Source: a virus. From it: a stretch of 64,000 nucleotides of DNA. A program made the translations under genes and the position numbers. How positions within the stretch are numbered: the first letter of the stretch is position 1; each line of letters begins with the position of its first letter. Below the pieces are notes generated by a model, which did no database searches, was not told the DNA's origin, and worked only from the letters and a program-made list of their open reading frames with translations. Shown here piece by piece: positions 3,202 to 36,986 of this stretch. The stretch covers positions 24,953 through 88,952 of the IMG/VR virus record IMGVR_UViG_3300032278_002257; one strand, given 5' to 3'.

Positions 3202-4647
3202 ATGTTTGAATTGTTGATGTGGACTATATTGGGTTCACTTTATGGATTATTTATAGGCATAATTCCCGTTTCAGGGCCCACCAAAGCATTAATAATGCTG
3301 TTTAGTGTTGTAAATCATTTTTCACATATACCATATGAATTTGTCGCCTTTTCTATGGCAGCGGTTGTTGCGTGTACAATAGGAGATAGTTTTTCAGGAG
3401 TTTATATTGGAATTCCCGGATCTAATTCTTCTGCGGCGACAATGGTTGATGGATTCCCACTCACCAAAGCAGGACAAAGTTCTTACGCAATTAGTTTAGC
3501 ATTAACCACTAGTGGTATACAAGGTATTATTTGGTTTGTTCCATTTCTTATTGTTCTTCCATTATATGAATATATTTTACAATATATGAAAGTTCCTGAG
3601 ATGTGGGTTATTATATTGTTTAGTTTTTTGAGTGTAAGTTTACTATCAAGTAATAAACCATTAAAAGGTATTTTAGCAGTAATTATAGGTGTTGGTTTAG
3701 GATCAATTGGTTCTGATGTTACAGGAAATCCAAGATTTACATTTGGAATGGAATATTATCTTTATGACGGTATAGGTATTGCAGTATTGGCATCAGGATT
3801 ATTTTGTATTCCAGAATTATATACATTGTGTAAATTTGATATGAAATCTGTTAAAGAAAATAGTGACTTTAAACAAATAAAAAAAGGTATAATTGATGCA
3901 ATACGTTTATGGAAACATGGTTTTGTTGGGGGATTAATTGGGTTTTTCTATGGACTATTGCCGGGATATGGTGGTGGCGGTTCAGAATGGATTTCTTATA
4001 GTATAGCGACAAAAATGAAAAGGGTATTTTCAACTCCATTTGGTAAGGGCGCGCCAGAAGGTATAGTCGCACCAGAAGGAGTTAATAATGCCGGCAAGGC
4101 AGGAGCATTAATACCCACTATTCTCATAGGTATTCCTGGTGCAACATGGGCAATGATCGCGATGGGATTATGGGAATATATTGGATTTCCTATGGGAGAT
4201 TTATATATATTAGAGGATAAAAATTTTATAAATTCTATAATAATTGGTTATCTAGTCGGCACTATTTCAGTTACAATTTTTGGATTATTATTAGCCGGGC
4301 CGATATCTAAAATATTTCGTATCAATAAATATTTTTTCATAGCATTTGTTGCACTTGTTACATGGTGGGCAATAATAAGTTCAAATTTTTATGAATTTAT
4401 TTTAGAAGATTCAATATTTTTTATTGTGTTTTCATTTTGTGGGTTTATACTGAAGCATTTTAAAATTAGCAGGCCAGCGGTATTGTTGGGATTTATTTTG
4501 AGTGAAAGATTAGAACAATTTTCATATCAATTGATAGATTTGTATAGTTTTCAAGAAATAATTATAAGACCATTCGTTATTATAATAATGTTGTTATCAA
4601 TATTGATGGTCATTTTTAGTAAAAAAGTAAAGGTGGATTATGTTTAA
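3202..4647 (+). CDS. tctA: Tripartite tricarboxylate transporter permease, TctA family
   Basis: A large integral membrane protein of 481 aa, the normal size of TctA, the main permease of tripartite tricarboxylate transporters that import citrate-like acids with a periplasmic TctC receptor. It shows the internal-repeat hallmarks: a first-half 'GIPGSNSSAATMVDG' loop and a second-half 'LLPGYGGGGSEW' loop, followed by 'APEGVNNAGKAGALIP' and 'GIPGATWAM', all characteristic of TctA. The first-half PGxGPT loop is altered to PVSGPT. About ten hydrophobic helices are visible. The TctC-like gene overlaps it by 8 bp. No TctB (small four-helix subunit) is seen nearby, so the phage may rely on host TctB or work without it. 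Confidence 0.85.
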   Translation: MFELLMWTILGSLYGLFIGIIPVSGPTKALIMLFSVVNHFSHIPYEFVAFSMAAVVACTIGDSFSGVYIGIPGSNSSAATMVDGFPLTKAGQSSYAISLALTTSGIQGIIWFVPFLIVLPLYEYILQYMKVPEMWVIILFSFLSVSLLSSNKPLKGILAVIIGVGLGSIGSDVTGNPRFTFGMEYYLYDGIGIAVLASGLFCIPELYTLCKFDMKSVKENSDFKQIKKGIIDAIRLWKHGFVGGLIGFFYGLLPGYGGGGSEWISYSIATKMKRVFSTPFGKGAPEGIVAPEGVNNAGKAGALIPTILIGIPGATWAMIAMGLWEYIGFPMGDLYILEDKNFINSIIIGYLVGTISVTIFGLLLAGPISKIFRINKYFFIAFVALVTWWAIISSNFYEFILEDSIFFIVFSFCGFILKHFKISRPAVLLGFILSERLEQFSYQLIDLYSFQEIIIRPFVIIIMLLSILMVIFSKKVKVDYV

Positions 4648-5755
4648 ATTTATTCAATTAGTATTATGTATGTTGTTTGTTTTTGGTACAATGGTTATGG
4701 TCAGCCAGGTTAATGCTGATACAATGTACGCAGTTATTCCTAGTTCACCAAAGCCAGGAGGAACCTCGAGATGGGCATGGCTTTGGGGTAAACATATGAA
4801 TAATAATTTATCAGGTAATATTGAACAAATAGATTTTAAATATATCCCAGGAAATAGAGGAAAAAATGCTCTAAGAAAATTTGAAAGTAAATTGAAATAC
4901 GGTAATTATATGATGACTAGTCATGGTGGAAATGCTATGGCAACATTATTAGAAGATGTTGGAAATTATGATTTTAGAAAATATAAACCAATATTAATTC
5001 ATCCTGGTAATATGCTTATTCCCAAAAGGATAGATTATAATCCAAAATTCCATAAACAAAAATTCGCACTTAATCCTGGGGGTGGATCAGAACCAGACCA
5101 TTTCGCGGCGGGACTAATGGTGTGTCCAGAGACTAATGATATGGATAAATTTATGAAATGTTTTAAAGATAGAGTAATTATTGTTAAAGGTATGAAAAGT
5201 GGAGGAGCGCGGATTGTAGCATTTGTAAATGGAGAATTGAATGTAAGTAGAGACACCTTTCAGAATTATACAGGTAATGCAAAATATAAAAAAGCATTAT
5301 CTAACAATGAACTTGAAATATGGTTTCATCATTGTCAAATGAATTATAAAACAGGTCAATGGGTAGATGATCCAAATCCTGAACTTAAAGGATTATGTTT
5401 CGATTATATATTTGAACAAACTCATGGATTTAAACCCAAAGGAGAGGTTTATGATGCATATGTTTTATTGAGATTGTGGAGAGATGGTATTCAAAAAAGT
5501 TTTTTTGTGACTACGGATAGTGTATATTATCATGATATGGTAACAATTGCAACAAAAACGTGGTTCGATGAGGAATTTCAAAAAGAAAGATTAAAAAAAT
5601 TAGGAAATTATGGGGTATTTATTGGACAAGACTCTGAGTTTATTATAAAAAGAATGTATGAAGCGGTAAATGAATCAACATTAAAAAATGCAGTAAGATT
5701 TGTTAATGAAGGATTAGGTTATAAAGCAGTAGTTAAACACATTCATTCTCCTTAA
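4640..5755 (+). CDS. TctC-like periplasmic solute-binding protein
   Basis: A 371-aa protein with a signal peptide: Met-Phe-Lys, a hydrophobic core to about residue 20, then a VNADT cleavage region. The mature N-terminus has a 'PGGTSRWAW' segment placed like the PGGGTD loop of the TctC/Bug receptor family, followed by an 'IPGNRGKNAL' segment resembling the PGAGG region, and it is longer and divergent after that. It overlaps the TctA gene by 8 bp, which strongly supports the role of substrate receptor for that permease. Probable substrate class is a carboxylic acid, but the ligand cannot be told. The 3' end converges with and overlaps a minus-strand gene by 23 bp. Confidence 0.6.
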   Translation: MFKFIQLVLCMLFVFGTMVMVSQVNADTMYAVIPSSPKPGGTSRWAWLWGKHMNNNLSGNIEQIDFKYIPGNRGKNALRKFESKLKYGNYMMTSHGGNAMATLLEDVGNYDFRKYKPILIHPGNMLIPKRIDYNPKFHKQKFALNPGGGSEPDHFAAGLMVCPETNDMDKFMKCFKDRVIIVKGMKSGGARIVAFVNGELNVSRDTFQNYTGNAKYKKALSNNELEIWFHHCQMNYKTGQWVDDPNPELKGLCFDYIFEQTHGFKPKGEVYDAYVLLRLWRDGIQKSFFVTTDSVYYHDMVTIATKTWFDEEFQKERLKKLGNYGVFIGQDSEFIIKRMYEAVNESTLKNAVRFVNEGLGYKAVVKHIHSP

Positions 5756-8572: not shown

Positions 8573-9477
8573 TGTTTGGAACATCGACATATCATCAAAC
8601 AATCAGAAAAATGGTTGTTGCTTTTGGTTCATTATTTAATGATATTTCAGTTAAAAGGGTAAATTCATCCGGAGTTGTAGTAGAAACTTTAAAAATTCCT
8701 GTTGCTTATGGACCAAAACAAAAATTTATGGTTAGAATTGCAAATCCCGCTCTTGCAGGAACTCCAGCAATAATTTTACCTAGAATTGGGTTTATGATGA
8801 GTCAGATAATGTATGATGGAACAAGAAAATTGAATACTGTTGGTAAGAATGCTTCTTCTATATCTGGAACAATGAGAACACAATATAATCCTGTTCCTTA
8901 TAATTTTATTTTTGATTTGGCTATTTTAGCAAAAAATGCAGAAGATGCCGCACAAATTGTTGAACAGATTTTACCAAATTTTACACCAGAATTTACAGTA
9001 ACTATTAAAACTGTACCTTTAATGGATATTGCGGTCGATTGTCCTATTATATTAAATTCTGTTAACTATACAGATGCATATGATGGAGATTTTGAAACTA
9101 GAAGATCTTTATCATGGGATATGCAATTTACAATGAAAACGTTTCTGTATCCAGAATTATCGACTAGTGGAAAACCAATTAAGGACATAACTCTTCAGAT
9201 AATAGTTCCTGAGAATGTATCTGGAAACGCGGATGCGGATATTGGTACTTTAGATAGATTTCTTTTGGAAAGTAGTACAGCATTTACAATTAATAGCGTA
9301 ATAACTGAAGATTCTGAATCACTTTATTTAGAATCTGCAGACGTAAATTTATTAGGAAATACATCAACACAAACAACCGCAACTCTTGGAATAAAACCCA
9401 AACCAGAAGATGCGGCAGCGGATGATGATTTTGGGTTTAGTTTAACACTTGATGGAGACGATGTATCATGGACATAA
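8572..9477 (+). CDS. 15: Tail sheath stabilizer and completion protein gp15
   Basis: Matches T4 gp15, the terminator ring at the head-proximal end of the tail that locks the sheath and binds the neck. It has the characteristic opening 'MFGTSTYHQTIRKMVVAFGSLFNDI', followed by 'VPVAYGPKQK'-like and 'RIGFMMSQIMYDGTRK' segments typical of the family. The C-terminal ~80 residues are acidic and extend beyond T4's 272 aa. Position between genes 14 and 16 is as in relatives. The start overlaps gp14's stop by one base, and the end overlaps gp16 by 10 bp. Confidence 0.88.
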   Translation: MFGTSTYHQTIRKMVVAFGSLFNDISVKRVNSSGVVVETLKIPVAYGPKQKFMVRIANPALAGTPAIILPRIGFMMSQIMYDGTRKLNTVGKNASSISGTMRTQYNPVPYNFIFDLAILAKNAEDAAQIVEQILPNFTPEFTVTIKTVPLMDIAVDCPIILNSVNYTDAYDGDFETRRSLSWDMQFTMKTFLYPELSTSGKPIKDITLQIIVPENVSGNADADIGTLDRFLLESSTAFTINSVITEDSESLYLESADVNLLGNTSTQTTATLGIKPKPEDAAADDDFGFSLTLDGDDVSWT

Positions 9478-9872
9478 AAGATTTAGTTCAAGAAGTTTTG
9501 GTTGAAGACCCAATAACAACTCTTCCAGAAAAGACAGAAAAAAGATTAACAGTAGATTCAGATGATGAGGATTTTAAAACTGATTATAGATATTCAAGAG
9601 AAAATTATTATAATTTAATGGAAAAGGGACATGACGCATTAGATGAATTATTAGAAATAGCAAAATCGACAGAGCATGCAAGACATTTTGAAGTTGCTTC
9701 ACAACTGATTAAAAATCTTGGAGAAACTAATGAAAAATTGGTAAATCTTCAAAAAGTTAAAAAAGAATTAACAAACAAAGCACCAACAGGACCAGCATCA
9801 GTTAATAATAATTTGTATGTTGGATCAACTACAGATTTATTAAAGTTGATAAAGGATAAGAAGAATAAATGA
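9468..9872 (+). CDS. 16: Terminase small subunit gp16
   Basis: Small terminase that recognises concatemeric DNA and stimulates gp17. The 134-aa protein has an acidic N-terminus, a 'YRYSRENYYNLMEKGHDALDELLEIAKSTEHARHFEV' helical hairpin (quoted here only as its position, roughly residues 40-75, with key YNL, ALDEL and EHARHFEV) and a C-terminal basic stretch, all as in marine gp16 proteins. The large subunit lies about 8 kb downstream, an unusual separation filled by accessory genes. Confidence 0.82.
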   Translation: MDIKDLVQEVLVEDPITTLPEKTEKRLTVDSDDEDFKTDYRYSRENYYNLMEKGHDALDELLEIAKSTEHARHFEVASQLIKNLGETNEKLVNLQKVKKELTNKAPTGPASVNNNLYVGSTTDLLKLIKDKKNK

Positions 9873-10308: not shown

Positions 10309-10653
10309 ATGATTGATTTATTTAACACTTCTGAAATGATGATGCTTGGATTGGTATTATTTTCATCATTTTGGATATTTCTGTTTAATTACAGACAGGA
10401 TAATAAGGATAAGTATAACGGTCATGGATGGTTGATTTTACTTGATTTAGTTATCAATATGGGAATGTCAGCAACTGGATATTTGTTGATTTCTATTGTA
10501 TTTACAAATGTTCCACAACTTGCGGCCTATGAAAGTTATCGTTATCCCATCGGTTATCTTTTTGGATTGACATCTAATGTGAGCATACCGATTGTTCTCA
10601 AATGGTTTCAACAGCAAATCACCAAGAAGTTAAACGAAGCAGGAAAGAAGTGA
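10309..10653 (+). CDS. Membrane protein, three-helix holin-like
   Basis: A 114-aa protein with hydrophobic segments at roughly residues 9-28, 42-66 and 79-98, a short polar N-terminus and a basic C-terminal tail (KKLNEAGKK). This size and topology fit a holin, but no family signature is recognised, and the next gene encodes a membrane-anchored cytochrome, so an electron-transfer or transport role is also possible. An AAGGTAAC site precedes the ATG. Cell location would be the inner membrane. Confidence 0.6.
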   Translation: MIDLFNTSEMMMLGLVLFSSFWIFLFNYRQDNKDKYNGHGWLILLDLVINMGMSATGYLLISIVFTNVPQLAAYESYRYPIGYLFGLTSNVSIPIVLKWFQQQITKKLNEAGKK

Positions 10654-10660
10654 GGTAATT

Positions 10661-11131
10661 ATGGCTGAAAAAGAAAAAATTGTTGCAAATGGAAAAGATC
10701 AAAAAATACTACAACATGATATTGAAGAAATAGATAAAAAAGTAGATGAAGTTCAACAAATGGAACTTTCTGCTAAAGACCAAATAGTTGCGAGTAAATC
10801 ATTTATCTATGTTATTATTGCACTTCTTATATACTTAACCTTTTTGGTTATTCCAGATATAGAAGAAAAAGTTACATGGATGGAAAAGGATCTCAACTCT
10901 GTATTAGTTCAATCTGAACGATTCAAGAAATCAACCAGAGTATTTGCAAAGGATAATCAATGTGCATCGTGCCACTTGAGTCCAGATTATCTTCTTCATA
11001 ATCTCTTAATGAAATATCCAAGTTTTTCTGACATTAAAGCATTCATGTCGGTTGGCCACCAGAGATATTATACTATGACCGCCCCGATCGCAGATGAAGA
11101 ATTGTTAGAAGTATATCGGGCATTGCAATGA
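10661..11131 (+). CDS. Membrane-anchored c-type cytochrome-like protein
   Basis: A 156-aa protein with a charged cytosolic N-terminus (1-45), a single transmembrane helix (about 47-65), and an outside domain bearing a haem-c attachment motif C101-x-x-C104-H105 (CASCH). In small class I cytochromes the haem segment is followed by a Met ligand and a terminal helix. Here M139 lies in 'YYTMTAPIADEELLEVY', which fits that pattern. The periplasmic domain is short (about 90 residues) but plausible for a mono-haem cytochrome. It would need host haem maturation. Its stop overlaps the start of AapJ (ATGATAATG). Electron-transfer partner unknown. Confidence 0.7.
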   Translation: MAEKEKIVANGKDQKILQHDIEEIDKKVDEVQQMELSAKDQIVASKSFIYVIIALLIYLTFLVIPDIEEKVTWMEKDLNSVLVQSERFKKSTRVFAKDNQCASCHLSPDYLLHNLLMKYPSFSDIKAFMSVGHQRYYTMTAPIADEELLEVYRALQ

Positions 11132-12243
11132 TAATGGTAGGTAAACTTGTTGTATCTTTAATTTGGGTATTTTGGATGATGGCATTGTCTCCTGCTGAGG
11201 GCCAAGATCCAATGAAAGAAAAACTTGGAGTTGGTGCACCAAAATCAGAATATGTTCCAACGTATAATTCAACATTTGAACGAGTGAAGAAAAGAGGATA
11301 TGTCATTTGTGGAACCAATGATGAGTTTCCCGGCTTCTCTCAGGAAATATGGAATAATGAAGATGGTGATAGGTGGGAAGGTTTTGATGTTGATATATGT
11401 CGTGCAGTTGCAGCTGCAATATTCGGTGATGCAGATGCAATCGAATTTACTATAGTCAATGGTAAGACCCGATTTGAATTCTTAATAGATGGTTCTATAG
11501 ATATTCTTTCTGCTGCAACCACATTTACTTATACAAGGAATGTTGCAAAGAAACTAGAATTCCTACCTACAACCTATTACGATGGTCAAGGATTCATTGT
11601 AAGAAAAACTCTTGGAGTATCTTCTGCAAAACAGATGGAAGGTGCAAGGATATGTTTTAGTGGTAGTGGAACAGCTGCAAAGAACATTGCAGACTTTTTT
11701 GAGTTACATGGAATAAACTATATCCCTGTCGCAGTACCCCCTAACGAAAAAACAAAGAACGTATACAAAAGGGGTGACTGTGATATGTATGGTACGGATA
11801 GGTCTGGTCTTGCATCGAATAGATTAAGTTTTGATGACCCTGCCCGTCACATGATACTTCCAGAGATTATCTCAAAGGAACCATTGGGGCCAGTTGTCAA
11901 GTATGGAGATCAGAAATGGACAGACATAGTTCGATGGACAGTATATGTTTTGTTTATTGCAGAAGAGATGGGCATTAATTCAAAGAACATTGACTTGTTC
12001 AAGAATCACATAGACCCAAACATTCAAAGATTTATGGGTGAAAAAAATGGAAAAGATCATCCCCATCTTGGAGCTAAACTTGGACTAGAGGCATCTTGGT
12101 CATATAACGTTATTAAATTGATTGGAAATTACAAAGAAATATATGAACGTAATGTGGGGCCGGATACACCTATAGGATTAGAACGTGGTCTGAATAAATT
12201 ATACAATCATGGAGGATTATTATATGCCCCACCATTGAAATAG
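11128..12243 (+). CDS. aapJ: General L-amino-acid ABC transporter substrate-binding protein
   Basis: Periplasmic binding protein of the AapJ/YhdW type, which feeds L-amino acids to the Aap ABC importer of alphaproteobacteria. Diagnostic segments are 'RGYVICGTNDEFPGFS', 'WEGFDVDICRAVAAAIFGD' and 'GSGTAAKNIADFF'. A hydrophobic signal sequence occupies about residues 5-20, with cleavage likely near AEGQ. At 371 aa it is slightly longer than the usual ~340. No permease or ATPase genes accompany it, so it would have to dock to the host importer. It overlaps the cytochrome gene by 4 bp and is followed by the Pycsar-effector-like gene. Probably acquired from a host. Confidence 0.87.
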   Translation: MIMVGKLVVSLIWVFWMMALSPAEGQDPMKEKLGVGAPKSEYVPTYNSTFERVKKRGYVICGTNDEFPGFSQEIWNNEDGDRWEGFDVDICRAVAAAIFGDADAIEFTIVNGKTRFEFLIDGSIDILSAATTFTYTRNVAKKLEFLPTTYYDGQGFIVRKTLGVSSAKQMEGARICFSGSGTAAKNIADFFELHGINYIPVAVPPNEKTKNVYKRGDCDMYGTDRSGLASNRLSFDDPARHMILPEIISKEPLGPVVKYGDQKWTDIVRWTVYVLFIAEEMGINSKNIDLFKNHIDPNIQRFMGEKNGKDHPHLGAKLGLEASWSYNVIKLIGNYKEIYERNVGPDTPIGLERGLNKLYNHGGLLYAPPLK

Positions 12244-12252
12244 GGGCATGAT

Positions 12253-12933
12253 GTGGAAAAAGAAGAAATTAATCAATTTTCAAAAGTACCTGAAGATCGT
12301 ACTGCAGTAGATAATATTCTCCGCCTCAATCACGGTAATCAAATGAGATTGGGGTTGATGGCAGATGCAAAAGCTAATATAATGATTACTGTTGCATCTA
12401 TTGTATTTTCTATAACGATAGCAAACCTGGACAATGAGGTGATGAAATGGCCTCTACTAACATTTGCAACGGGCAGTTTCTTCTCATTATTGTTTGCGAT
12501 ATTTGCTATTATACCAAAGACGGATTATCCAAAAGACAGACATGGAGATATAGACAGATCATCTCCGCATTTTAATCCTTTATTTTTTGGTCATTTTGCT
12601 CATATAGATATTGAAGAATATAAAGAAGATTACGCAGAAAAATTGATGACAGATGATATCGTATATGATGCACTTGCGGGAGACATATACGGACAAGGAA
12701 AAGTTCTTGCTCTCAGTAAATACAAATTTCTCAAGTGGTCATACATGAGTTTCCTTTGGGGAATGGTGGGAGCAGTTTTAGTATTCTTATTACGAGGGCC
12801 GGTTGGAGAATTTATCTATCCGTACCTAATAAGAGGGCTTGATGCATTTATTGATGAAATGCTGTTCTTGTTGGAAGGAATGAAACATTTGGCGTGTCAA
12901 GGAACAATACAATGTAGGAATGGTGGGAATTAA
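12253..12933 (+). CDS. Pycsar TM effector-like membrane protein (DUF5706 type)
   Basis: A 226-aa membrane protein resembling the transmembrane effector of Pycsar antiphage systems. The N-terminal signature A37-D-A-K-A-N is followed directly by TM1 (42-59). TM2 (67-87) follows, then a soluble loop with an FFGHF segment, 'EEYKEDYAEKLM', and 'YDALAGDIYGQGKVLALSKYKFL', then TM3 (163-181). The order and spacing of these elements are as in that family. A further hydrophobic C-terminal segment with two cysteines is extra. The start is GTG: the frame is closed by the upstream TAG and offers no ATG, and AGGGG precedes it. No pyrimidine cyclase is seen nearby. Confidence 0.68.
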   Translation: MEKEEINQFSKVPEDRTAVDNILRLNHGNQMRLGLMADAKANIMITVASIVFSITIANLDNEVMKWPLLTFATGSFFSLLFAIFAIIPKTDYPKDRHGDIDRSSPHFNPLFFGHFAHIDIEEYKEDYAEKLMTDDIVYDALAGDIYGQGKVLALSKYKFLKWSYMSFLWGMVGAVLVFLLRGPVGEFIYPYLIRGLDAFIDEMLFLLEGMKHLACQGTIQCRNGGN

Positions 12934-13014: not shown

Positions 13015-13623
13015 ATGAAAACATTTAAGAATCATTTAGTAGAATCTAGTTTATCGAGAGTTATGCATCATGTGAATAAAACTCCTAAGTTTGGTTTAAT
13101 ATCACCACATAGGCAGGAACATTCACCTGAAGAGAATGAAAAACGCTTTTCTGATTTAAAAAATCATGTTCGAAAACTTGGACATGGATATATTGAAATG
13201 AGAGGTGGTTATAAAGAAGAGGGAGGATTTGTTAAAGAAAAATCTCTTCTTATTCCTAATATTGAAAGAAAACACATGATGGGTTTAGGAAAAAAATATG
13301 ATCAACATTCAGTAATCCACAAAGAGAAAGATGATTTTTCACTTTTAGGAACAAATACTTCTCCAGGAAATTCTCATGGTAAAGTTCATGCAAATTTTAA
13401 TCATGGGGGCAAAAGTATTTCTGTTGATAATAGAGGAAACCAATTTCAAGATTTATTCTCAAAATTACATAAAGGCTCACACAGAGATAAAAAGTTTCTA
13501 TTAAAAATGAAAGAGGAATCTTTTGTTATGGAAGAAAAATTAGAAACAAGCATGTATTATAATAAATTACATGGTGAACAATGGCTTACAATCTTTGAAG
13601 GAAAGCCGAATGAAGCAATTTAA
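13015..13623 (+). CDS. Hypothetical protein with internal-head-protein-like N-terminus
   Basis: A 202-aa, basic, histidine- and glycine-rich soluble protein. It begins MKTFKNHLVES, the closest copy in this window to the T4 internal-protein leader (MKTYQEFIAEA), with L8-V9-E10 at the exact position of the T4 cleavage site. The body (for example 'SFLLGTNTSPGNSHGKVHANFNHGGKS'-like region at about 105-135, key NTSPGNSHGK) shows no family I can name. It is the first gene after a sigma70-type promoter and overlaps the kinase gene by 14 bp. Possible packaged, injected protein (inference). Confidence 0.62.
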   Translation: MKTFKNHLVESSLSRVMHHVNKTPKFGLISPHRQEHSPEENEKRFSDLKNHVRKLGHGYIEMRGGYKEEGGFVKEKSLLIPNIERKHMMGLGKKYDQHSVIHKEKDDFSLLGTNTSPGNSHGKVHANFNHGGKSISVDNRGNQFQDLFSKLHKGSHRDKKFLLKMKEESFVMEEKLETSMYYNKLHGEQWLTIFEGKPNEAI

Positions 13624-14806
13624 TGAATTCTTAATTGAAGGAATGTATGATCCTTCAATTTTTAAAGCAGTTTTCATGGCAGGAGGTCCTGGTTCTGGAA
13701 AGTCGTGGGTTGCCGGTCATTCAACAGCTGGACTAGGAATGAAGATTGTGAATTCAGATGAAATATATGAATTAAAATTAACATCTTCTGGATTGGGAAC
13801 AGACTTCACGAAATATACAGAAAAGGATTTCGAGAAATCTCAAGTGATTAGAGATAAGGCAAAATCCCTTACAAAAATGAGAATGAAACAATGGATGGAC
13901 GGAAGATTAGGTTTAATTGTAGATGGCACAGGCCATAAATTTGACAGACTTCAATCAGCATCAGAAGGATTGCGGGGGTTGGGTTATGATACAATGATGA
14001 TATTTGTTAATACATCATTAGATGTCGCTTTAAAAAGAAATAGTCGAAGACCTAGAAAATTAAGAGATGACATAGTAAAAAAGAGTTGGGAAAATGTTCA
14101 GTCAAATATAGGAAAATTTCAAGAATATTTTGGTGCTGATAAATTTATAATTGTTGATAATAATACTGAAACTGAAGCACGTGATCCATTTAGAAGTGTT
14201 TATAAAATATTAAAAAAAATAATACAGAAACCTGTAGAAAATTATAAAGCTAAAAAATGGATTGAAAGGGAAAAGAAATTAAAAAAATCTCAAACTTTTA
14301 AAGAATATTTTGAATTAGATGAATTTGATAATCCTCAAATTTATTGTGATATGGATGGAGTTGTAGCGGATTTTGATGCGGGAGTTAAGGAAATGATTGG
14401 TGGAAAGTTTAAAGATGAGCGTTGGGAGGAATTACCAGACGATTTTTTCTATAAATTACCACCAATGAAAGATGCGAAACGACTTTGGAATTTTATTGGT
14501 AAACTCAATCCCTTTATGCTTACAGCAATACCAACACATAAAAGGGGAAAAATCGCTGATAGGGCGGGAGCTGATAAGACAAAATGGATGCTAAAACATT
14601 TTAATGTTGAAAAAAATAGTATGAGAGCAGTTTCAAGACGTGATAAAAAACAATTTGCTAAAGATGGTAGAGATAGAAGACCCAATATTCTGATTGATGA
14701 TCATGAACAAAATATTGCAGAATTTAGAAAAGCGGGAGGAATAGGAATACATCATACCAGTGCAGCAAATACAATTAAACAACTTAAAGCGATAGGATTC
14801 AAATAA
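13610..14806 (+). CDS. P-loop kinase - HAD phosphatase fusion (Pnkp-like)
   Basis: A 398-aa two-domain enzyme, start chosen at ATG 13610 because a GAAGGAAAG site precedes it and the product then begins MKQFNEFLIEG, the window's capsid-targeting-like motif. The N-terminal domain is a kinase with Walker A G25-G-P-G-S-G-K-S32, 'NSDE' (48-51) and 'VDGTGHKFD' (104-112), as in polynucleotide kinase/zeta-type enzymes. The C-terminal domain is a HAD phosphatase with D247-M-D-G250 and 'LIDDHEQNI' near the end. The order kinase then phosphatase is that of T4 Pnkp, which repairs cut tRNA ends. The domain linker (227-238) holds a second TFKEYFELDE motif. Alternative role: deoxynucleotide kinase/5'-nucleotidase. 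Confidence 0.75.
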   Translation: MKQFNEFLIEGMYDPSIFKAVFMAGGPGSGKSWVAGHSTAGLGMKIVNSDEIYELKLTSSGLGTDFTKYTEKDFEKSQVIRDKAKSLTKMRMKQWMDGRLGLIVDGTGHKFDRLQSASEGLRGLGYDTMMIFVNTSLDVALKRNSRRPRKLRDDIVKKSWENVQSNIGKFQEYFGADKFIIVDNNTETEARDPFRSVYKILKKIIQKPVENYKAKKWIEREKKLKKSQTFKEYFELDEFDNPQIYCDMDGVVADFDAGVKEMIGGKFKDERWEELPDDFFYKLPPMKDAKRLWNFIGKLNPFMLTAIPTHKRGKIADRAGADKTKWMLKHFNVEKNSMRAVSRRDKKQFAKDGRDRRPNILIDDHEQNIAEFRKAGGIGIHHTSAANTIKQLKAIGFK

Positions 14807-17844: not shown

Positions 17845-18069
17845 ATGTTTAATCATTGGCCAAAAGTTGAAGCGGCGTTTCTGTCCTCGATATTAGCGTT
17901 GGTCATATGGATGACATCAGGAATAATTTCTCATGAGACATCTATCGCTGTATTAACAGAACGAGTAAAAACAATACAAGTGGATATAAAAGATATGAAA
18001 AATGATATTCATAGTTTGATCGCTCTAAAAGAAAAAGAACTTAATTATGAATCCTATGCAAAAGACTAA
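17845..18069 (+). CDS. Membrane-anchored coiled-coil protein (possible spanin/holin)
   Basis: A 74-aa protein with one N-terminal transmembrane segment (about residues 10-28) and a C-terminal heptad-rich helix (TERVKTIQVDIKDMKNDI). This layout is seen in inner-membrane spanins and small holin accessory proteins. There is no partner lipoprotein gene in another frame that I could find. It is two bases after the previous gene and overlaps gp17 by one base (TAATG). Confidence 0.6.
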   Translation: MFNHWPKVEAAFLSSILALVIWMTSGIISHETSIAVLTERVKTIQVDIKDMKNDIHSLIALKEKELNYESYAKD

Positions 18070-19703
18070 TGGGCGCACAGCATTATCTTGGTAACCCAAA
18101 TTTAAAAAACTCAAACGTACAATTAGAATTTTCTCCTGATCAAGTAAAGGAACTTGTTAAATGTGCCACTGACCCAAAACATTTCATAGAAAATTATGTT
18201 CAGATTGTTCATGTTGATCATGGTTTAGTTCCTTTTAAATTATACGATTATCAAGAAGAGATGGTCGAAATTTTTCATAATAATAGATTTGTAATTTCAA
18301 AACTACCTAGACAATCTGGTAAATCAACAACAATTGTATCTTATCTTTTACATTATATTCTTTTTAATGAGAATGTTGCAGTTGCTATTCTCGCTAATAA
18401 AGGTAATACTGCGAGAGAACTTTTGAGCAGAATGCAGATGTCTTTTGAACATTTACCGAGATGGCTACAACAAGGAGTTACTGTTTGGAATAAAGGTAAT
18501 GTTGAATTAGAAAATGGTAGTAAAATTCTCGCTGCAGCAACATCCTCTTCAGCGGTTAGGGGTTCATCTTTTAATATCATTTTCCTTGATGAGTTTGCTC
18601 ATGTAGATCCACCATCTTTAGCGGATGAATTTTTTAACTCTGTTTATCCTACAATTTCTTCTGGAAATACTACAAAAGTTTTCATTGTATCAACACCATA
18701 TGGAATGAATAAATTTTATAAAATGTGGATTGATGCAGAAGAGGGGAGAAATACTTATGTTCCATTTTCTGTAAATTGGAGTGATGTTCCAGGTAGAGAT
18801 GATGCTTGGAAACAAGAAACTATTCGAAATACAAGTGAAAGACAATGGAGACAAGAATTTGAGTGTGAATTTTTAGGATCTACAAATACTTTGATTGAAC
18901 CTGCCAAATTAAGAAATATGCCTTATAAGCCACCAATTAGAAAACAACAAGAATTGGATGTTTATGTTGAACCACAAAAAGGTCATGCTTATTGTACTCT
19001 TGTAGACACAGCGTCAGGCGTTGGTCAAGATTATTCCACATTTACAATAATTGATGTTACAGAAATACCATATAAAGTTGTTGCAAAATATAGAAACAAT
19101 GAAATATCTCCAATTATTTTTCCAAATATAATTGAACAAATATCTACACAATATAATAAGTCTTGGTGTTTAGTCGAAACTAATGGAAATGGTATGCAGG
19201 TAGGAGATATATTGTATTATGATTTAGAATATGAGAACACTATTCTCACTTCTCCAAATAAAGGTGGTCAAGAAGTTAGTGGTGGATTTAAGAAAAATTC
19301 TAGAATTGGTTTAATTACATCAAAACATGTTAAAAGAACCGGTTGTACAACTATAAAAGAATTAATTGAGAAGGATCATTTAATAATTGAGGATTTTGAT
19401 ATCATTTCAGAGTTGATGACTTTTGCTGAAAAAGGACCCAGTTTTCAGGCTGAGGAAGGATATCATGATGATTTGGTCATGACTTTAGTTTTATTTGGAT
19501 GGTTAGTGAATCAAAGATATTTTAAAGAAATTACTGATTCTGATATTAGAAAAAAATTATTAGAACAACAAGAAAGAATGAATGATGAAGATTCATTACC
19601 ATTGGGCTTTTTTAATGATGGCAAATCTGAGGTAGTGGCTGAAGATGATTATCATGTTTGGAAAGAATATAAATCAGGACTCTATTGGAATTCCGAAATT
19701 TAA
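18069..19703 (+). CDS. 17: Terminase large subunit gp17
   Basis: DNA-packaging motor and headful nuclease, 544 aa. The N-terminal ATPase has Walker A P80-R-Q-S-G-K-S-T87 and Walker B IIFLDE (170-175) with catalytic E175, and a coupling motif 'VSTPYG' near residue 216. The C-terminal RNase H-fold nuclease shows D313 in 'LVDTASGVGQD', 'CLVETNGNGMQ' and a late 'YHDDLVM' acidic pair. The size is normal for marine T4-like gp17. It is followed by a short gap with late promoters and the sheath gene. Confidence 0.95.
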   Translation: MGAQHYLGNPNLKNSNVQLEFSPDQVKELVKCATDPKHFIENYVQIVHVDHGLVPFKLYDYQEEMVEIFHNNRFVISKLPRQSGKSTTIVSYLLHYILFNENVAVAILANKGNTARELLSRMQMSFEHLPRWLQQGVTVWNKGNVELENGSKILAAATSSSAVRGSSFNIIFLDEFAHVDPPSLADEFFNSVYPTISSGNTTKVFIVSTPYGMNKFYKMWIDAEEGRNTYVPFSVNWSDVPGRDDAWKQETIRNTSERQWRQEFECEFLGSTNTLIEPAKLRNMPYKPPIRKQQELDVYVEPQKGHAYCTLVDTASGVGQDYSTFTIIDVTEIPYKVVAKYRNNEISPIIFPNIIEQISTQYNKSWCLVETNGNGMQVGDILYYDLEYENTILTSPNKGGQEVSGGFKKNSRIGLITSKHVKRTGCTTIKELIEKDHLIIEDFDIISELMTFAEKGPSFQAEEGYHDDLVMTLVLFGWLVNQRYFKEITDSDIRKKLLEQQERMNDEDSLPLGFFNDGKSEVVAEDDYHVWKEYKSGLYWNSEI

Positions 19704-22069: not shown

Positions 22070-22705
22070 ATGGCGGATGAAGCAGTAAATAATTTTAGTA
22101 TTAATACTTTTATTAGTTCAATTAAAGCCTCAGGGGCGAGATCTAATTTATTTTCATGTACAATGACATTACCAGCAACCGCAGTGGATGCCGCAGGAAT
22201 GGCAAAGCAGACCGGTGCAACGGACAAATTAGATTTTCTAGTAAATGCAACGGTTATGCCAGGATATATTAATGGAGAAATTCCTGTTTCTTATTACGGG
22301 AGGCAGGTTTTCTTTGCAGGAGATACCACATTTGGCGATTGGACATGTACAGTATTAAATGATGAAGATATGAAAGTTAGAACAAATATTGAAAGATGGA
22401 TTGAAGCTATGAATAGTGCAGAGGGAAATGTAAGAGCATGGAAGATTCCTCATTCTAGTATGTTAGGTACAATATTAGTTAAATCTTATTCTTTAGCTGG
22501 TGATACGACAAAGACAATTGATAGTATGAAATTACATGGTGCATGGCCAAATAATATATCACCAATTGAATTAAGTCATGATTCAGTAAATACTATAGAA
22601 ACATTTACTATAACTTGGCAATATTCTTATTCTGGACCAACATTATCTACAGCAACTAATGCGGTCAAAACAATAGATACAGTAGCCGGCGGCGGAGTCG
22701 CATAA
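22070..22705 (+). CDS. 19: Tail tube protein gp19 (copy 1)
   Basis: A 211-aa tail tube-fold protein, first of three tandem paralogues. Shared landmarks are S-G-A-R-x-N-L-F near residue 25, Y-Y-G-R before a 'FFAGDTTFGDW' strand, N-D-E-D (about residue 100), and a C-terminal 'ETFTITWQYSY'. Position directly after the sheath gene, as in T4, makes this the likely main tube protein. A GGAGAG ribosome site precedes the ATG. Confidence 0.85.
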   Translation: MADEAVNNFSINTFISSIKASGARSNLFSCTMTLPATAVDAAGMAKQTGATDKLDFLVNATVMPGYINGEIPVSYYGRQVFFAGDTTFGDWTCTVLNDEDMKVRTNIERWIEAMNSAEGNVRAWKIPHSSMLGTILVKSYSLAGDTTKTIDSMKLHGAWPNNISPIELSHDSVNTIETFTITWQYSYSGPTLSTATNAVKTIDTVAGGGVA

Positions 22706-22717
22706 TAAGGAGAAATA

Positions 22718-23287
22718 ATGGCAGCAACGGGATTTAACGTTAATGATATTAAAACCGCTTTAGCGGATGGTGGAGCGAGACCTACGCTATTTGAGATTAG
22801 TGGAAGTTTCGAAGGAACAAGTTTTATGTTACATTGTCGAGCGGCATCATTACCAGGAACAAATATTAATGTAATTCCTGTAAATTATCGCGGAAGAGCA
22901 ATTAAACTCCCAGGAGTTAGAACTTATGATGTATGGAATACGACATTTTTAAATGATGATGGTGAAATAAGACAGAAGTTAATAACATGGATGAGACAAA
23001 TGGCGGGGGGAATTGATGGATCAAGAACTGCTGTATATGGACCATTTAATAAAACTACTTCTGATTATAGAGATTTGTCCGTTACTCAATTAAAAAAAGA
23101 TGGCACAAAAACAATAACTTATAAATTAATACAGGCTTGGCCAGTAAATATAAGTGATATTGCATTAGATTGGGGCACAGAAGGATTTCAAGAATTTACT
23201 GTAACTTGGAGATATGATTATTTTCTAGAAAAATCTGAGGCTGGCAACTCCGCAAAGGTGGGTGATATTATTGCAGCCGCTGCGTGA
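22718..23287 (+). CDS. Tail tube protein gp19 paralogue (copy 2)
   Basis: A 189-aa paralogue of the preceding gene. The landmarks G-G-A-R-P-T-L-F-E, Y-R-G-R, L-N-D-D and 'EFTVTWRYDY' align one-to-one. It lacks the inserted loop around residues 35-50 of copy 1. It could be an alternative tube subunit or a baseplate-proximal tube ring such as a gp54/gp48-type initiator, which share this fold. The gap to copy 1 is 12 bp with AAGGAGAAA. Confidence 0.8.
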   Translation: MAATGFNVNDIKTALADGGARPTLFEISGSFEGTSFMLHCRAASLPGTNINVIPVNYRGRAIKLPGVRTYDVWNTTFLNDDGEIRQKLITWMRQMAGGIDGSRTAVYGPFNKTTSDYRDLSVTQLKKDGTKTITYKLIQAWPVNISDIALDWGTEGFQEFTVTWRYDYFLEKSEAGNSAKVGDIIAAAA

Positions 23288-23347: not shown

Positions 23348-24025
23348 GTGGCATTCAATGTAGATGAATTTAGATCAAAAGCGCTAAAATATGGTGGTGC
23401 GGCACCTAATCTATTTGAAGTGGATATTGTCTGGCCTTGGACATCTTCTACTAGAACAAATTATAACATTAAAACAACATTTCTTCCAGCATCTATATCA
23501 ACTTCCACAACAGTAAATTATCTTGGTAGAGTTTTTAAATTTGCAGGGGAAAGAACATATCCACAATGGACATGTACTTTTCTTAATGATGAAGATTTTA
23601 AATTGAGAAATGCATTAGAAAGATGGTCTGATTATATTTCTGGACACGTGAAACTTGGAAGAACAAGAGTACAATCTACTGCAGGAAGAGAGGATGCACC
23701 ACTCGATTATCAATCTTCAGCTATATTGACTCAATTTTCAAAAAATGGAAATCCTTTAAAAAAATATACATTTAATGGGCTATATCCATTAACATTAACA
23801 GATATTCCTGTTTCTTGGGATACGACAAATGCAATTGAAGAATTTACAGCAACATTTGAATATCAATATTATACAACCAATTATATAAGTTCTAATCCTG
23901 AGAGTCGCGACATCAGCCCTGATAATTGGATTGGAAGAGGTAGCACAGTTCCGCGCGATCAAGGTGTAGCAGAAATGAATGCAACGTTGGATGATTTTGA
24001 TTTAACAATGGACGATGATTATTAG
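23348..24025 (+). CDS. Tail tube protein gp19 paralogue (copy 3)
   Basis: A 225-aa third tube-fold paralogue: G-G-A-A-P-N-L-F-E, Y-L-G-R, 'FLNDEDFKLRN' and 'EEFTATFEYQYY' align with copies 1 and 2. It has an extra acidic C-terminal tail of about 40 residues ending DDFDLTMDDDY. The start is GTG at 23348, since no in-frame ATG exists near the conserved N-terminus. It has its own late promoters, suggesting a different dose from copies 1 and 2. Possibly the tube-terminal or baseplate-proximal form. Confidence 0.78.
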   Translation: MAFNVDEFRSKALKYGGAAPNLFEVDIVWPWTSSTRTNYNIKTTFLPASISTSTTVNYLGRVFKFAGERTYPQWTCTFLNDEDFKLRNALERWSDYISGHVKLGRTRVQSTAGREDAPLDYQSSAILTQFSKNGNPLKKYTFNGLYPLTLTDIPVSWDTTNAIEEFTATFEYQYYTTNYISSNPESRDISPDNWIGRGSTVPRDQGVAEMNATLDDFDLTMDDDY

Positions 24026-36721: not shown

Positions 36722-36911
36722 ATTAAAATTCTCTTTAGAAAATAACTGGAAATGGATGGCTAAAGATGAAGACGGGTCTGTTACAGTTTTTAATAAAAAA
36801 CCAAATTTAATAGATGGGGTTTGGGATAGTTTAGGAGAGTTTAAAGTTCTCACTCATCCCAATTCAGGATCACTGTTAGCTAATTGGGAAGATTCACTCA
36901 TACCAATTTAG
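36687..36911 (+). CDS. Small hypothetical protein
   Basis: A 74-aa soluble protein with several tryptophans (ENNWKWMAKDEDG, IDGVWDSLGEF, LANWEDS), suggesting a small beta domain. The ATG follows ATGAGGTCAA. The TAG stop shares its final G with the first base of the tRNA-Ala. Function unknown. Confidence 0.5.
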   Translation: MENLQEENKIIELKFSLENNWKWMAKDEDGSVTVFNKKPNLIDGVWDSLGEFKVLTHPNSGSLLANWEDSLIPI

Positions 36912-36986
36912 GGGCTGTAGCTCAACTGGGAGAGCGCATCCCTTGCACGGATGAGGTAGCAGGTTCGATCCCTGTCAGCTCCACCA
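36911..36986 (+). tRNA. tRNA-Ala (UGC)
   Basis: A full cloverleaf: acceptor GGGGCTG pairs with CAGCTCC (one G-U), D arm GCTC...GAGC, anticodon stem CATCC/GGATG around loop CTTGCAC (anticodon TGC), T arm GCAGG-TTCGATC-CCTGT, discriminator A and encoded CCA (36984-36986). The first G is also the last base of the upstream stop codon. It is the only tRNA found in the window. It reads GCA/GCG-family alanine codons, useful where phage virion genes are Ala-rich compared with an AT-rich host. Confidence 0.95.

Follow-up and report, generated by a model that had tools for sequence, protein, structure and literature searches.

A conserved gene cassette around a putative membrane-anchored c-type cytochrome in T4-like marine phages

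We examined a window of 64,000 nucleotides (bases 24,953–88,952 of the 88,952-bp virus record IMGVR_UViG_3300032278_002257; positions below are those of the window) and identified a conserved gene cassette around an ORF of 156 aa with an ATG start (10,661–11,131), here referred to as CYT, which probably encodes a c-type cytochrome. The cassette is the main new result and was not part of the initial annotation of this DNA. It comprises the gene of a three-transmembrane protein, TM114 (10,309–10,653), CYT, the gene of an AapJ-type amino-acid ABC transporter periplasmic binding protein (11,128–12,243) and, usually, that of a PycTM-like membrane protein (12,253–12,933). These genes and the two terminase genes described below all lie on the plus strand. 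Neither the CYT gene nor the cassette was found described in the literature searched. Redox genes have been described in phages before, mainly in cyanophages, and cytochrome c motifs occur in at least one known phage protein; it is the CYT cassette that is new in that literature.

We see an even chance that CYT is a tethered c-type haem protein that works at the inner membrane together with TM114 and the binding protein. This reading is favoured because the CxxCH motif is invariant though the N-terminus diverges, because the motif is rare by chance and because the cassette is tightly linked; it is also favoured by the predicted N-in/C-out topology and by the strong constraint on the predicted periplasmic domain. 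Further support comes from the gp16–gp17 interval, which the cassette shares with the PTOX and pcyA genes of P-RSM4. On the other hand, the reading is weakened because no cytochrome family was matched above its cut-off, the AlphaFold confidence is low and the methionine M139 is absent in 29% of the relatives.

Genomic position and linkage of the cassette

The cassette lies between the genes of the terminase small subunit (gp16; 9,468–9,872; phrog_445, E 5e-38) and large subunit (gp17; 18,069–19,703; PF03237, E 4e-24), which form the left and right borders of a gene island. Together with a tail sheath gene, these were the T4-type genes identified in the window, and more than 200 phage contigs carry CYT, so the phage origin proposed at first is well supported. 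The relatives are presumably from sea water, as read from the IMG/VR project numbers. The phage has a GC content of 32%. It had also been taken for a pelagimyophage, and it is indeed closer to HTVC008M (57.8% identity in the large terminase and 62.4% in the major head protein), but the cyanophage P-RSM4 is nearly as close (56.2% and 56.9%, respectively). The window phage is related to both, and pelagimyophage is plausible as a guess.

The gp16–gp17 interval carries PTOX and the ferredoxin oxidoreductase gene pcyA in P-RSM4, a 2OG oxygenase and a tryptophan halogenase in HTVC008M, and the CYT cassette in the window; since its contents differ in this way, the interval is a variable accessory-gene island of T4-like marine phages. 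Of the 105 distinct loci, 75 have the cassette no more than 3 kb downstream of gp15/gp16. Further along the island, the window encodes a DUF3293 protein (13,015–13,623), a possible anti-restriction enzyme with an S-adenosylmethionine lyase Pfam score of 28.2 against a cut-off of 28 bits, and a fusion of Zeta-toxin/AAA kinase-like and 5′-3′ deoxyribonucleotidase-like domains (13,571–14,806), relatives of which recur near the cassette in other loci.

No CYT was found in the 50,697 phage records searched or among 72,556 plasmids. The search of genome contigs returned only three loci, in MAG contigs labelled as Saprospiraceae (L100), Acidimicrobiaceae (L101) and Chloroflexi (L102); as the gene orders of L101 and L102 are phage-like, these two are probably misbinned phage contigs and not hosts.

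TM114 was followed by CYT in all 220 loci with room for both, mostly at a spacing of 3–8 bp, and the binding protein gene was the next gene downstream of CYT in 131 of 132. The stop codon of CYT and the ATG of the binding protein gene overlap by 4 bp in 155 of 167 loci, which suggests that the two are translationally coupled. These counts include contigs that are nearly identical to one another and should not be read as independent events. In six loci (L276–L279, L353 and L367), 1–1.6 kb of other genes separate CYT from the binding protein gene, with both retained where the contig is long enough. L097 and L302 each carry the binding protein gene as two overlapping frames, the result of either a frameshift or a sequencing error. 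PycTM is a usual, not an obligatory, fourth gene and the loosest member of the cassette: other genes are inserted ahead of it in L282–L290, and one 99-kb record has PycTM with neither CYT nor the binding protein. The core of the cassette is thus formed by the genes of TM114, CYT and the binding protein. The possibility of a T4-type late promoter immediately before the TM114 gene was rejected, since ATAAATA was present in only 6 of 94 upstream stretches.

Topology, motif and axial ligand candidates of CYT

CYT has a single hydrophobic stretch at about residues 47–65, with a family mean Kyte-Doolittle value of 2.57 over 19 residues. The net charge of the 15 residues on each side of this helix is about 0 before it and about −2.4 after it, and the more positive flank is the N side in 97% of 115 proteins. 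On account of this more positive N flank the protein is predicted to be N-in/C-out, with CxxCH on the periplasmic side, and hydropathy and charge fit the single transmembrane helix and outward C-terminal domain that the initial annotation had described. Residues 1–46 (10,661–10,798) would form a cytosolic N-terminal region, which evolves fast (dN/dS 0.37) and appears exchangeable, the N-termini of L074 and L075 being different. Hydropathy and charge place the signal-anchor helix at residues 47–65 (10,799–10,855), inside a continuous helix of residues 13–98 in the AlphaFold model, and residues 66–98 (10,856–10,954) are predicted from the AlphaFold secondary structure to be a periplasmic helical stalk with a conserved MEKDL..VL.QSER pattern. 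The helix and stalk together have a dN/dS of 0.14 and the C-terminal domain one of 0.09; the constrained part of CYT is thus its predicted periplasmic domain.

The putative haem c attachment motif is C101-A-S-C104-H105 (10,961–10,975); by chance, CxxCH is expected 0.0006 times per protein of this length. Over the 278 ORFs of two phage records 0.32 occurrences were expected, and the two found were both CYT orthologues. Three scans of viral contigs returned 181, 185 and 148 relatives in overlapping sets. CxxCH was present in 115 of 115 distinct full-length relatives, down to 50% pairwise identity, and in 132 of 132 once the loci from further scans, seeded with the neighbouring genes, had been added; six fragments with no CxxCH stop at a contig edge upstream of the motif. 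Synonymous codon changes were identified at C104 and H105. CxxCH is therefore not a chance motif, in agreement with the initial annotation, and homologues lacking it, which had been named as what would speak against a cytochrome, did not occur among the 132.

The position of a distal haem ligand is less clear-cut. On a class I reading, which is a judgement by pattern, this ligand would be M139 (11,075–11,077), and if M139 is the methionine after the motif that the initial annotation had taken as typical of a cytochrome, that part of the claim was not supported: M139 is found in only 82 of 115 proteins, being missing in 29% and replaced by A in 17, L in 12, N in 2, T in 1 and S in 1, and it changed at least 6 times on a quick tree (11 times by parsimony). 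The conserved distal methionine that a class I cytochrome c is expected to have a short way ahead of its C-terminal helix was thus not found at this position, and of the C/C/H/M pattern sought in homologues, C/C/H was kept throughout and M139 was not. In contrast, M129 and H133, which delimit an M-S-V-G-H stretch (11,045–11,059), are invariant in the 115 proteins, and H113 is present in 114 of them. These invariant residues are better axial-ligand candidates than the variable M139: a bound haem would more likely have His-His or His-Met coordination by way of H133 or M129.

Cytochrome family and fold searches

None of the matches of the window CYT to Pfam cytochrome families reached its gathering score. 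The best-represented sub-threshold model was SoxA-TsdA_cyt-c (PF21342), which matched all 90 CYT domain sequences over about 30 residues around CxxCH, with a best E of 0.00025 and with 13–17 bits in the CYT sequences shown against a gathering score of 27 bits. When CYT domains were shuffled with CASCH kept in place, 2 of 7 matched another cytochrome family, one of them at E 0.0026, so the motif alone can yield such weak matches; in two copies of the domain with a mutated motif the cytochrome match was lost. On the basis of the shuffle controls, the PF21342 matches were discarded as evidence of homology to SoxA/TsdA: they recur in every domain sequence, but they are short and below threshold and have comparable cytochrome matches among the shuffles. 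Profile comparison with hhalign aligned CYT to cytochrome c551 over only 17 columns around CxxCH, and in a PDB profile search a diheme cytochrome was aligned over 25 residues with an E of 0.11.

The AlphaFold model of CYT has the long helix (residues 13–98) followed by three or four short helices after CxxCH, and the pLDDT of the full protein and of the domain is low, about 59–61. The structure prediction that had been suggested as a check thus gave a helix order compatible with cytochrome c, but at a pLDDT of about 59 and with no Foldseek match in PDB below E = 1 for this low-confidence model; the models were set aside as too uncertain to serve as fold evidence.

This lack of fold or profile support outside the motif would also fit a reading in which CxxCH is a disulfide or a metal site, the latter completed by H113 and H133, and CYT a structural or adaptor membrane protein; the conservation of these two histidines and the variability of M139 would fit as well. 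However, H105 is as invariant as C101 and C104, a histidine for which a bare disulfide has no need, and the domain is predicted to be periplasmic, where CxxCH is a substrate signal for the Ccm machinery. We regard this non-haem explanation as decidedly unlikely. It is probable that CYT is a c-type cytochrome, given that its motif is invariant, its domain is predicted to lie in the right compartment and His and Met candidates for axial ligands are conserved. The membrane-anchored c-type cytochrome of a myovirus first proposed for this ORF is well supported as regards motif, predicted topology and phage origin, and not supported as regards M139 as a ligand.

Among the closest known systems is cytochrome c-y/CycM (c552) of alphaproteobacteria, a membrane-anchored monohaem protein with an uncleaved N-terminal anchor and one CxxCH. 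CYT resembles it in its predicted anchor, single CxxCH and predicted periplasmic domain, and differs from it in a shorter domain, a variable M139, a long helical stalk, a place in a phage cassette and no detectable class I profile similarity beyond CxxCH. By analogy, CYT could be a free-standing carrier of the respiratory chain, from bc1 to the oxidase, to which its neighbours are incidental, in keeping with the place in the host respiratory chain that the initial annotation had proposed. An N-terminal anchor with a small putative haem domain would suit this role, as would the gene island common to CYT and cyanophage PTOX; yet an independent carrier would not be expected to be linked so nearly absolutely to the genes of TM114 and the binding protein, the similarity to a class I carrier extends over the 17 columns around CxxCH only, and M139 is not conserved. 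Such a carrier is unlikely, and a role of CYT of some kind in the host respiratory chain is possible.

As with the PTOX, plastocyanin and ferredoxin genes of cyanophages, CYT is a putative redox protein of a T4-like marine phage, and the PTOX of P-RSM4 lies in the same gp16–gp17 interval; unlike those electron-transport genes, CYT encodes another type of protein with another putative cofactor, no bacterial homologue was found for it, and it is coupled to a three-transmembrane protein and a binding protein. Cytochrome c motifs have been seen in a phage gene before: the phage-encoded SoxD can be recognised as a sulfur-oxidation protein of the host, and the outlying phage copies discussed with it have no such motifs (PMC8190135). 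The reverse holds for CYT, whose motif is invariant and whose family is not recognisable.

Neighbouring proteins and proposed function

The binding protein (PF00497, E 1e-11) aligns over 323 residues (48–370) to PDB 4z9n, a solved AapJ-type protein, at E 2e-83 and shares about 46% identity with copies on rhizobial plasmids. With its signal-peptide-like start and this alignment, it is expected in the periplasm, the compartment that the CYT domain needs. It differs from AapJ, a general L-amino-acid-binding protein, in having no adjacent permease or ATPase genes and in being coupled to CYT. The PstS of cyanophages probably captures phosphate for the host, and the phage binding protein would likewise be expected to feed a host transporter, with amino acids instead of phosphate and with linkage to a putative cytochrome.

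TM114 showed no convincing family in Pfam or PHROG, and its reading as a piece of complex I was rejected, the only match being a weak one to 6u8y_H (E 0.006) across membrane segments. The PycTM-like protein scores 71.3 bits against the cut-off of 27.2 for PF18967 and matches the PADLOC PycTM model at E 3e-16, which places it with the Pycsar effector PycTM; it matches both Pycsar and CBASS 2TM effectors, and it is conserved in many marine phages. The cassette could alternatively form a module that acts on the envelope or on the timing of lysis, with a holin-like TM114, a PycTM that permeabilises the membrane, and CYT and the binding protein as sensors of redox or nutrient state. Besides the PycTM matches to membrane effectors, this would fit TM114, which is small and has three transmembrane segments and a basic C-terminus, and the cell wall hydrolase gene found 2.6 kb further downstream. 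Nevertheless, TM114 matched no holin family in Pfam, and its best PHROG holin hit, seen in one of the 11 members, was at E 0.18; the linkage of PycTM is not strict, as it is found without CYT and the binding protein, and no homologue of the HTVC008M cyclase, the only cyclase compared, was found in the fetched CYT loci. We therefore consider a lysis-timing module very unlikely. No homologues of the HTVC008M ferrochelatase were found in the CYT loci either.

If CYT is a tethered haem protein, it would be a monohaem c-type cytochrome that is exported and held by its N-terminal signal anchor and helical stalk on the outer side of the inner membrane of the host. The cytochrome c maturation system of the host would attach haem to C101 and C104; H105 would be the near ligand, and the far one would be H133 or M129 in preference to M139. 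CYT would be co-produced with TM114 and the AapJ-type binding protein and would most likely act with them on the periplasmic side of the membrane. The binding protein may capture amino acids for a host Aap-type permease, in the way of cyanophage PstS for phosphate, while the tethered haem may take electrons from or pass them to other components at the membrane, we infer, and so could help to sustain electron flow and energy supply during infection. The wider possibility, which we put forward as tentative and rather improbable, is a phage-specific envelope complex in which TM114, a tethered c-type haem protein and the binding protein link the capture of nutrients to the transfer of electrons in infected bacteria, and which would be widespread in uncultured T4-like marine phages and have no bacterial counterpart.

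The presence of CYT with the binding protein suggests that a large group of uncultured ocean phages changes how electrons flow and how nutrients are taken up at the infected cell's surface. If true, a c-type cytochrome in uncultured, probably heterotroph-infecting ocean phages would extend phage action to the respiratory electron flow of the envelope, and its link to the binding protein would be a new way to tie nutrient uptake to energy during infection.

Some other features of the record were observed. A tricarboxylate transporter gene, tctA (Pfam E 2e-79), and an overlapping gene for a secreted-looking 371-aa protein, which may be a divergent TctC, occupy positions 3,202–5,755; phage tctA has been reported for SUP05 viruses (PMC4164917). 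Upstream of the window, record bases 1–26,000 (L181 and L182) contain a series of large ORFs whose cysteine motifs are radical-SAM/SPASM-like and, judged by eye, ORFs resembling ATP-pyrophosphatase and acyl-AMP ligase; together they have the look of a biosynthetic cluster carried by the phage. The window has a single tRNA, a tRNA-Ala (TGC) at 36,911–36,986. Three tandem ORFs (22,070–22,705, 22,718–23,287 and 23,348–24,025) are each 29–38% identical to the single tail tube protein of HTVC008M, and the tail tube gene looks triplicated there.
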